Positions 50,630 through 53,681 of a stretch of DNA of 53,681 nucleotides are shown here, in pieces (the stretch's first letter is position 1; the number at the start of each line of letters is the position of its first letter). The notes under the pieces are model-generated. The model was not told where the DNA came from, made no database searches, and worked only from the letters and a program-made list of their open reading frames with translations. A program made the position numbers and the translations under genes. The stretch comes from Alphaproteobacteria bacterium casp-alpha2 (GTDB lineage Bacteria; Pseudomonadota; Alphaproteobacteria; Rhodospirillales; Casp-alpha2): positions 1 to 53,681 of the forward strand of contig LFEN01000064.1 in assembly GCA_001510075.1 (NCBI GenBank), read 5' to 3'.

Positions 50630-50950
50630 TCATTTAAATGAGATGCCGTGGCGCACGTGGTCCCTTAACTGCTCGACAACCTTAGCCTGCTTTTCAAACA
50701 AATCGCGGGCAAATTCACTTAACCTGGCACTCTGCGCGGCATCACTCGAAAACTGTTCTCGCTGACCGCACTCGTTCAGCAACGTCAGAACCGTGTCCGC
50801 GGTCGGTTCCGAACCGCTGCTCTTTAGATACCCGTAATATCCGGCACTGCGGTGGAGCCAATTTCGGCTGAAATCATACTGGCTCTGCACTAGATTGTTC
50901 TTGCGGAGGCGCTGGTAAGCATCTGTGACCACTTGCCGTAACTCAGTCAT
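50630..50950 (-). CDS. DUF6626-like small protein
   Basis: VVTDAYQRLRKNNLVQSQYDFSRNWLHRSAGYYGYLKSSGSEPTADTVLTLLNE. Confidence 0.6.
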   Translation of the reverse strand: MTELRQVVTDAYQRLRKNNLVQSQYDFSRNWLHRSAGYYGYLKSSGSEPTADTVLTLLNECGQREQFSSDAAQSARLSEFARDLFEKQAKVVEQLRDHVRHGISFK

Positions 50951-51231
50951 TCAGCATTATCCCAACTCCGTCCATAAACTCCTTTGGATTGTCTGGTTAA
51001 TGCGTGTTTAGCCATATTGCGGACGGTTTTAGAGGAATTGTCGCTGTCATCGTTTAGCTTGGTTCTCAAATCAGCGAGTTTGGCTTGATATTCAGCCCAT
51101 TTCTTACCCAGCTCGTATTGCTGCTTGTGTAATTCGATGGTTTTTGGGTCTTTCGGCACGAGGATGCGCCGTCTTTGCAATTGTTGTTCCGCTATGAATT
51201 CATGTGCTCTCATTAAAATTCCTCCTGTCAC
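50947..51231 (-). CDS. hypothetical protein, coupled to the downstream DUF6626-like gene
   Basis: ORF MTGGILMRAHEFIAEQQLQRRRILVPKDPKTIELHKQQYELGKKWAEYQAKLADLRTKLND; 4-bp overlap. Confidence 0.5.
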   Translation of the reverse strand: MTGGILMRAHEFIAEQQLQRRRILVPKDPKTIELHKQQYELGKKWAEYQAKLADLRTKLNDDSDNSSKTVRNMAKHALTRQSKGVYGRSWDNAE

Positions 51232-51394: not shown

Positions 51395-51976
51395 ATGAAA
51401 GGGATAGTTATGGGACAAGCTATTGTGCTTACGGATGGGGATGTAAAAAAGGTTCTCAGCATCATCGCTGTTGGCAAACATGCTGCACGTAATCGCATTG
51501 CTTTCTTGCTCAGCGTTCAAGCTGGTATGCGGGTTGGAGAAATTTCCAAGCTGACTGTGGGTGATGTTCTGAATGGTGATGGCGGTGTTGTGCGTGAAAT
51601 TAAACTGTCGGCTGAGCAGACAAAGGGAAACAAGAGCCGAATTGTATATTTGAGCGATAAGCTACAACGGGAACTTGCCGCCTATGTCAAAACGCTGCCA
51701 CGCACCCATTCAAGCTTTCCGCTCATTTACTCGCAACGTAGATATGCTCATTTCAGCAACGTCACGCTTTGTATGCTGTTTAAGAAGCTCTACGAGCAGG
51801 CTGGTTTGCGAAATTCGAGCCATGCTGGTCGGAGAACTTTTGCGACGAAGCTGAATGCAAAGGGCGTTGGAATGCGGACTATTCAGAAATTAATGGGGCA
51901 TTCAAATATTCAAACCACATCATTGTATTGTGACGTGAGCGAAGAAACGCTGCGGAATGCTGCAGGCTTGGCATAA
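51395..51976 (+). CDS. tyrosine recombinase/integrase, catalytic domain only
   Basis: AGMRVGEIS (R), GNKSR (K), SSHAGRRTF (HxxR), LMGHSNIQTTSLY (H..Y); no N-terminal core-binding domain. Confidence 0.9.
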   Translation: MKGIVMGQAIVLTDGDVKKVLSIIAVGKHAARNRIAFLLSVQAGMRVGEISKLTVGDVLNGDGGVVREIKLSAEQTKGNKSRIVYLSDKLQRELAAYVKTLPRTHSSFPLIYSQRRYAHFSNVTLCMLFKKLYEQAGLRNSSHAGRRTFATKLNAKGVGMRTIQKLMGHSNIQTTSLYCDVSEETLRNAAGLA

Positions 51977-52207
51977 GTGATTTCAGGATAAGATATTGCA
52001 TACGCTTTGAGAATTGATGTCCGCTTAAGCAGATGGGGTGGATGGCTCCCGCTCCCTGTATATCATGATGCGGTGAAACTAGGCTTAGCCATCAGCGTTA
52101 ATGGCGGATGGATGATGACCGCAAGCGGACGTGATGTGCGGAATGAAATGCTGAACGATTAGGAAATCACGCTCCAACCCTTGAAACTGTCATGTTATTG
52201 TTTGCGA

Positions 52208-52492
52208 ATGTTCACCGTCGTCCGCACAACCACAAACCTTAGCCTTGATGAGCACTTCATCAAACACTCCGCTGCAACCTTCTTCGTGAAGGTCGAGGGC
52301 GACGGCATGGAAGATCACGGCCTATACAAGGGCGACACACTAATCGTTGACCGATCTATCAATCCTGAGAAGACCTCCATTGTCATTGTCGTCATTGATG
52401 GCGAACTGACTGTTCGTCACTTCTCAGACATCGACAGCGAAGAGGCTGCCGTCTGGGGCGTCGTGCGCGGCTCGATAAGAGACTTGCTATGA
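52208..52492 (+). CDS. umuD: UmuD'-like protein lacking the Ser/Lys catalytic dyad
   Basis: LSLDEHFIKHSAATFFVKVEGDGMEDHGLYKGDTLIVDRSINPEKTSIVIVVIDGELTVRHF aligns with UmuD [36 protein letters not shown]...GEFTVKKL. Confidence 0.88.
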   Translation: MFTVVRTTTNLSLDEHFIKHSAATFFVKVEGDGMEDHGLYKGDTLIVDRSINPEKTSIVIVVIDGELTVRHFSDIDSEEAAVWGVVRGSIRDLL

Positions 52493-53681
52493 CCATTTAC
52501 GCCTTGGTCGATTGCAACAACTTCTATGTTTCGTGTGAGCGGGTGTTCAATCCGAAGCTCGAAGGCCGCCCCGTCATCATCCTATCGTCCAATGACGGCT
52601 GCGCTATTGCCCGATCCAATGAAGCGAAGGAGTGTGGGGTCAAGATGGCTCAACCGCTTTATCAGTTCACCGACATCGTGAAGAATCACGACATCCAAGT
52701 TCTCAGCGGTAACTTCCACCTGTACACCGATATGTCCAATCGGGTGATGCAGGTGTTGGCTGACATGGCCCCCGCTGCCCAGCAGTATTCTATCGACGAG
52801 TGCTTCCTCGATATTACCGGACTTCCTGACGATCTCGATGAATATGGACAGGCCGTCCGTGCCAAGGTGAAGCAGTGGACGGGCATACCAGTCGGCATTG
52901 GGATCGCTGAAACCAAGACCCTTTCCAAGGTCGCCAACCGCATCGCTAAGGTGTCTAAGAAGGCTGATGGCGTTCTCAACCTTGTCGGCTCACAATGGCG
53001 CGAAAAGGCACTAGAAATGACCGAGGTCGGAGACGTGTGGGGGATCGGCAAGCAGTTTGCAAAGAAGCTACACAGGAACGGCGTGAAAACGGCCCTCGAA
53101 TTAACCAAGCAGCCCGACGGTTGGATCAGAAAAGAAATGGGTGTCGGCGGCCTGAAGACGGTCCGCGAACTTCGAGGTGAAGACTGCATCGGCTTCGAGA
53201 GCATCCCGCAACCCAAGCAGACGACGATGGTATCCCGGTCATTCGGCCAAACCATTACTGAACTGGACGACCTGATCAACGCCGTGACGGTGTTTGCCAC
53301 GACAGCGGCGGCGGACATTCGCAAGGCCAACCTCGTTAGCTCCGCCGTAAGCGTGTTTATCGAGACGAACCGCTTCTCGAATGAGCCGCAGTATGCGCCT
53401 TCGCAATCCATTGAACTATCGCCTGCCACCAATAACACCAAGCATATCGTCCGCGCCGCCATTCAGGGCGTGAAAGAGGCTTACAGCGAAGGGTTCAAAT
53501 TCAAGAAGGCCGGGGTGATGCTGCTTGACCTTGTTGATGCTGACCAAACGCCCCAGTCTCTCTTCGATACCCACGACCCGAAAGATGACAAGCTCATTGA
53601 AGCCTTCGACCAGATCATCCGTCAACAAGGGCCGGGAGCGATCAACTTCGGAACGGCCGGGCAAGCATCTGAATGGCACTC
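52489..53681 (+). CDS. umuC: DNA polymerase V catalytic subunit UmuC (runs off the window; absent from the ORF track)
   Basis: ATG 52489 overlaps umuD TGA; MTIYALVDCNNFYVSCERVFNPKLEGRPVIILSSNDGCAIARSNEAKECGVKMAQP...QQYSIDECFLDITG. Confidence 0.94.
   Translation, partial: MTIYALVDCNNFYVSCERVFNPKLEGRPVIILSSNDGCAIARSNEAKECGVKMAQPLYQFTDIVKNHDIQVLSGNFHLYTDMSNRVMQVLADMAPAAQQYSIDECFLDITGLPDDLDEYGQAVRAKVKQWTGIPVGIGIAETKTLSKVANRIAKVSKKADGVLNLVGSQWREKALEMTEVGDVWGIGKQFAKKLHRNGVKTALELTKQPDGWIRKEMGVGGLKTVRELRGEDCIGFESIPQPKQTTMVSRSFGQTITELDDLINAVTVFATTAAADIRKANLVSSAVSVFIETNRFSNEPQYAPSQSIELSPATNNTKHIVRAAIQGVKEAYSEGFKFKKAGVMLLDLVDADQTPQSLFDTHDPKDDKLIEAFDQIIRQQGPGAINFGTAGQASEWH

Follow-up and report, generated by a model that had tools for sequence, protein, structure and literature searches.

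The last part of the 53,681-nucleotide contig of the alphaproteobacterium casp-alpha2 analyzed here (the whole stretch is hereafter called the window) carries a umuDC-type operon whose UmuD-like protein has neither a cleavage arm nor a catalytic dyad. With a probability of roughly 65%, we regard it as a conserved mobile operon in which UmuD is permanently a UmuD'-type, non-proteolytic subunit for its own UmuC. DNA polymerase V (Pol V) is among the most tightly restrained bacterial polymerases, being subject to LexA repression, delayed cleavage, proteolysis and activation by RecA*. In Escherichia coli it consists of UmuD'2C, a complex that gains activity only when joined by ATP and by RecA supplied from a nucleoprotein filament (PMC6375631, PMC6511836). 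The UmuD-like gene and its two diagnostic codons are located as follows.

52208–52492, plus strand: umuD-like gene encoding a natively UmuD'-sized, catalytically dead accessory subunit of 94 amino acids (PF00717, E 3e-13)
52304–52306, plus strand: GGC codon, Gly33 at the position of the nucleophile Ser60
52415–52417, plus strand: CGT codon, Arg70 at the position of the general base Lys97

The protein scores 49.9 bits against PF00717 (cut-off, 23.3 bits). In a phmmer alignment of its residues 11–71 with E. coli UmuD' (1ay9; E 4e-12), the glycine of VEGDGMEDHG is opposite the serine and the arginine of GELTVRHF is opposite the lysine, which confirms the changes of GDSM to GDGM and of TVK to TVR proposed in the initial annotation. 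The proposed loss of the N-terminal arm with its Cys-Gly site was also borne out. Alignment with canonical proteins indicates that the arm, the C/A-G cleavage site and the conserved GFPSPADDY segment are all missing; the protein starts about three residues inside UmuD', near UmuD residue 28, and MFTVVRTTTN stands in place of GFPSPADDY. A hidden arm upstream of the start codon was considered and rejected by six-frame reading and by the upstream stops of two related loci, L018 and L019, in which an in-frame stop lies just 5' of the start with four codons between. The deletion suspected before the C-terminal strand is present, but it amounts to 19 residues between the TVR and WGVV strands by alignment rather than the 20–25 first estimated. 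This further deletion, beyond native UmuD' size, accounts for the length of 94 residues. The core fold predicted by AF2 agrees with the UmuD' assignment, its top match being 1ay9 (probability 1.00, TMq 0.68). The protein falls below the NCBIfam cut-offs of both the UmuD subfamily (NF007621; 83.5 versus 110 bits) and the HumD equivalog (NF051876; 41.6 versus 120 bits).

Searches of species genomes identified five further loci in the same dead state (G010, L018, L019, L020 and L021). The G010 locus (L004/L070) comes from another genus of the same taxonomic family as the window genome and is 82% identical, and L021, which is ended by a contig end, apparently corresponds to contig C73 of G097. Residue 33 is Gly in 6/6 members; residue 70 is Arg and the length is 94 in 5/5 complete members. 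Most alignment columns of the complete proteins are invariant, and the arm M-F-T-x-V-R-T is strictly conserved. The other UmuD homologs collected, in the order and outside it, keep a GFPSP-type cleavage segment, the lysine and GDSM, GESM or a Ser-holding variant. Every relative found has these residues and deletions, so the sequence state is not due to chance. The window contig derives from a metagenome-assembled genome (MAG) and ends within umuC, as might be expected of a sequencing or assembly artefact; however, identical residues and indels occur in five independent assemblies from other projects, which makes an error at the Ser and Lys codons, or an artefact of any kind, a negligible prospect.

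Degradation of the gene on a dying element would be in keeping with the multiple losses relative to UmuD, the broken umuC of G010 and the rarity of the family. Nevertheless, the five complete copies have a dN/dS of about 0.1 and saturated synonymous sites, show no frameshifts and are equal in length, and 433 of the 647 umuD differences fall at third codon positions. Pairwise dN values are 0.08–0.14 with dS near or above 1, alike in umuD and umuC; several YN00 estimates are missing because of the synonymous saturation. The window and L021 form a nearer pair, with 8% nucleotide difference over 48 codons. Six loci with a shared state, a dN of about 0.1 and a saturated dS are not the picture of an isolated decaying copy, and we consider decay very unlikely; the substitution pattern indicates that the dead state is under purifying selection.

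The dead umuDC family is rare. No member other than the window was found among 385 genomes sampled across the class, and only G010 and G097 carried one, besides the window genome (G000), among 317 genomes of the order. A phage or plasmid origin was considered and rejected: IMG/VR and INPHARED contained no close relatives, and all matches in PLSDB were below 60% identity. All family members come from draft MAGs. Two of them are small contigs with doubtful binning, namely L018, with a reported coverage of 0.08, and L019, from a Kiritimatiellia bin; this affects the host assignment and not the sequence.

The upstream region contains the following elements.

52196–52201, plus strand: -10-like hexamer TATTGT, ending 6 nt before the ATG, with T-12, A-11 and T-7 invariant in six loci
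52199–52202, plus strand: position of the left half-site of the ancestral LexA box, now lost, with TGTT instead of the GTTC seen in relatives
52208–52213, plus strand: ATGTTC, the start codon and Phe2, in which GTTC (52210–52213) is the retained right half-site

The initial annotation had reported no SOS box. Our scan likewise detected no GTTC-N7-GTTC, allowing up to one mismatch, within 500 bp upstream of the window umuD, and the exact box was present in 0/6 dead loci (for L018, the upstream sequence is limited to 217 bp). Thirty-one canonical umuD loci were examined in the order, and the 30 with enough upstream DNA all have an exact box within 500 bp. Together with two sister loci (2/2), the box is found in 32/32 canonical alphaproteobacterial relatives versus 0/6 dead loci (Fisher p 4e-7, a value that ignores the relatedness of the loci). 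In the window genome, lexA itself carries GTTC-N7-GTTC twice, which makes it very probable that the LexA of this genome recognizes the sequence.

Ten canonical loci have the arrangement GTTC-N5-ATG-TTC, in which an in-frame start-like codon (ATG in nine loci, TTG in one) runs into the right half-site; one of them, L046, has a stop at codon 3, so the start-like codon is not the start there. A LexA box over the start codon was noted at L105, L106, L010, L013–L015, L017, L055, L062 and L064. Because the operator overlaps the start codon in such canonical umuD genes, it dictates Phe2, and their mRNA may be leaderless. All six dead loci keep ATGTTC, and the position of the left half-site reads TGTT, CGTT, CGTC, TGTC, CATC and CATC. 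Within 40 bp upstream, only -21, -17, -12, -11 and -7 are invariant, the last three being those that matter most in a -10 hexamer if transcription begins at the ATG. The mRNA of the dead operon is thus probably leaderless. These comparisons indicate that the ancestral LexA box was lost through its left half while the promoter was kept. Another regulator could have replaced the LexA box, leaving the operon stress-induced: from about -22 outward the loci have dissimilar upstream sequences, so that local promoters may differ, and the -35 region is not conserved among the six loci. However, no shared operator is visible in them except the -10 region, and we consider such damage induction independent of LexA improbable.

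The partner gene follows immediately.

52489–52492, plus strand: ATGA overlap of the umuD stop and the umuC start, with the same layout in all five complete loci
52489–53679, plus strand: umuC (Y-family polymerase), 397 of about 419 amino acids before the contig end, with the catalytic residues D8, D103 and E104 kept

An intact, translationally coupled UmuC had been proposed, and the gene does appear intact as far as it extends: the window ends with the contig, and the last ~22 residues lie outside the sequence. The protein contains the PF00817 (IMS) and PF11799 (IMS_C) domains. umuC is open in four family copies, the window copy being open up to the contig end; three orthologs (L018–L020) encode a complete UmuC of 419 residues, in which the C-terminal region is complete and alignable. 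In G010 (L070:2889–3619, G010:C59), umuC is interrupted after about 135 codons, and the unrelated sequence that follows leads into a cytochrome-like gene; this is either a genuine deletion or a join made during assembly. In the UmuC tree, the dead loci group together in a single clade (SH-aLRT 100), apart from the UmuC of the genus to which the window belongs, so the operon was not inherited vertically with the genus.

Compared with 45 canonical UmuC proteins (among them an E. coli sequence that serves for numbering only), the dead clade is changed at six near-uniform positions: N34S, E98Q, G54A, S74A/G, Y76F and R223K. At positions 34 and 98, the canonical residues N and E occur in 45/45 proteins, and the dead clade has S and Q. 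The changed positions (34, 54, 74, 76, 98 and 223) are mostly within the N-terminal 100 residues. An AF2 model of UmuC, run without an alignment, had a pLDDT of 35, too low to be of use. In structural models of the E. coli proteins, one of the UmuD' arms lies close to the active site of UmuC (PMC11791011). The N-terminal changes possibly compensate for the new UmuD arm, and the MFTxVRT arm and the UmuC changes may have co-evolved into a working pair.

With no such arm to reach the active site of UmuC, the dead UmuD could instead act as a brake or competitor, binding UmuC or the host UmuD/UmuD' and holding Pol V in an inactive or replication-slowing state. Armless E. coli UmuD' is reported to form dimers but not to support mutagenesis in vivo (PMC11791011), which suits this alternative, as does the canonical umuDC also present in G097. 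On the other hand, the dead UmuD is coupled to its own UmuC, the catalytic residues of which are conserved, and the two genes are under equal purifying selection. Moreover, the strict conservation of the MFTxVRT arm, together with the changes of UmuC at near-invariant sites, suggests a rebuilt working interface. We therefore consider a braking function unlikely.

The preferred reading, a permanently UmuD'-type subunit, would start from an ancestor with a LexA-controlled, self-cleaving UmuD. From this ancestor, the left half of the LexA box would have disappeared with the promoter kept, as would the N-terminal arm with the cleavage site and the GFPSP segment, the Ser-Lys dyad, and the 19-residue C-terminal segment. 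The product would be made without SOS derepression and would not need RecA-stimulated cleavage. The dead UmuD would presumably dimerize, bind UmuC and provide TLS activity. This activity presupposes a rebuilt UmuC interface, because the GFPSP arm is replaced and armless E. coli UmuD' is reported to be inactive (PMC11791011). RecA* would probably still be required as the transactivator, because the UmuC proteins of L018–L020 retain an alignable counterpart of the C-terminal region with which E. coli UmuC binds RecA and UmuD'. In E. coli, the arm delivers UmuD and UmuD' to ClpXP, and the sequence of UmuD that ClpX recognizes is located there (PMC5342242); with the arm absent, proteolytic control may also be lost. 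The initial description of a constitutive UmuD' mimic holds for the native UmuD' size and the dead catalysis but not in the sense of a simple UmuD', since the GFPSP arm is also replaced. Likewise, of the proposed removal of the RecA and cleavage checkpoint, the loss of self-cleavage stands, whereas escape from RecA* activation is improbable, given the C-terminal region present in the complete UmuC proteins of the family. The suggestion that mutagenesis depends only on expression goes too far, because UmuD'2C needs RecA* and ATP (PMC6375631). A stronger version is possible but doubtful: a self-contained, horizontally moving Pol V that escapes transcriptional SOS control, self-cleavage and probably proteolysis, with a rebuilt interface between the arm and the UmuC active site and a perhaps relaxed need for RecA*, would be an always-on mutator cassette.

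Two genes lie upstream of the operon.

51395–51976, plus strand: tyrosine recombinase of 193 amino acids, directly upstream of the umuD-like operon
52007–52162, plus strand: small ORF, the C-terminal part of which is shared only with the G010 locus

In BLASTN comparisons between loci, the homologous stretch begins no more than ~22 bp ahead of the start codon and stops where umuC ends. No homology was detected beyond it, apart from a further ~160 bp upstream that the window has in common with G010. Because homology ends at the operon edges, the umuDC unit has moved; these breaks and the upstream recombinase support the mobile-element setting proposed at the outset. A tRNA integration site was considered and rejected, as the window contains no tRNA. 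L020 has two weak recombinase fragments downstream. A 30-nt inverted repeat with 97% complementarity lies just downstream of umuC in L020 (L020:7664–7738) and is absent downstream of umuC in L018 and L019. Beside the recombinase, two overlapping small genes (window 50630–51231, minus strand) encode a 94-residue protein of unknown function and a 106-residue DUF6626 protein, possibly a two-gene accessory module.

The window genome (1.77 Mb, 84 contigs) is 79.6% complete. In its assembled part, LexA is the only other S24 protein and there is no second Y-family polymerase; neither a second intact umuD nor a broken umuC was seen in this roughly 80% of the genome, and a canonical umuD could lie elsewhere. 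G097 carries the dead umuD (C73, at a contig end) alongside a canonical umuDC (C164), so UmuD heterodimers are conceivable there.

The nearest precedent in logic is the P1 HumD type (also N15 gp26, phiKO2 gp23, HK639, HK140, yong1 and pAEv1818; NF051876). P1 HumD has been named as an exception to activation by cleavage, and it demonstrates that a protein made at UmuD' size can function (PMC7092418). HumD types and the window protein are both natively UmuD'-sized, and self-cleavage is dispensable in both. HumD types begin at or next to the cleavage glycine, mostly with MGFPSP, and keep the hairpin region, the GFPSP segment being altered in pAEv1818; the window protein, in contrast, has no GFPSP and misses 19 C-terminal residues. 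No umuC is adjacent to HumD types in the regions seen, whereas the window protein has its own, and LexA sites are annotated for the P1 and phiKO2 genes but the box is missing from the window locus. Among the seven aligned phage proteins (L092–L098), most of which start with MGFPSP, Ser60 is replaced in 6/7 and Lys97 in 3/7, a pattern indicating that the dyad erodes once cleavage is not needed. On sequence grounds, the window protein is most aptly described as belonging to a convergent branch of its own among UmuD'-type proteins.

E. coli UmuDC and the plasmid-borne MucAB and RumAB systems resemble the window operon in the translational coupling of an S24-type subunit to UmuC, and the catalytic residues and, at the family level, the C-terminal tail are common to UmuC here and in canonical Pol V operons. 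The window operon differs from them by its lack of the cleavage site, the dyad and the LexA box and by a different N-terminal arm. The nearest UmuC relatives are those of the G145 umuDC (53% identical) and the Magnetospirillum plasmid pMSR-1 (50%), the latter flanked by recombinase and transposase genes. Their UmuD proteins start with MF, like the window family, but are otherwise canonical, with the cleavage site, GDSM, TVK and a LexA box across the ATG-TTC start.

If our reading is true, this family would be a HumD-like exception in the form of a bacterial operon with its own polymerase. A family without at least two of the Pol V controls, yet kept by selection, raises the question of what these controls are for and provides natural test material; because the arm and UmuC changed together, the control that the UmuD' arm exerts on UmuC can likewise be studied in it as a natural experiment. 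The dead family may represent a mutagenic repair enzyme that is no longer tied to the usual damage signal, and the substitution patterns indicate that selection keeps the umuDC pair in at least five distinct lineages.
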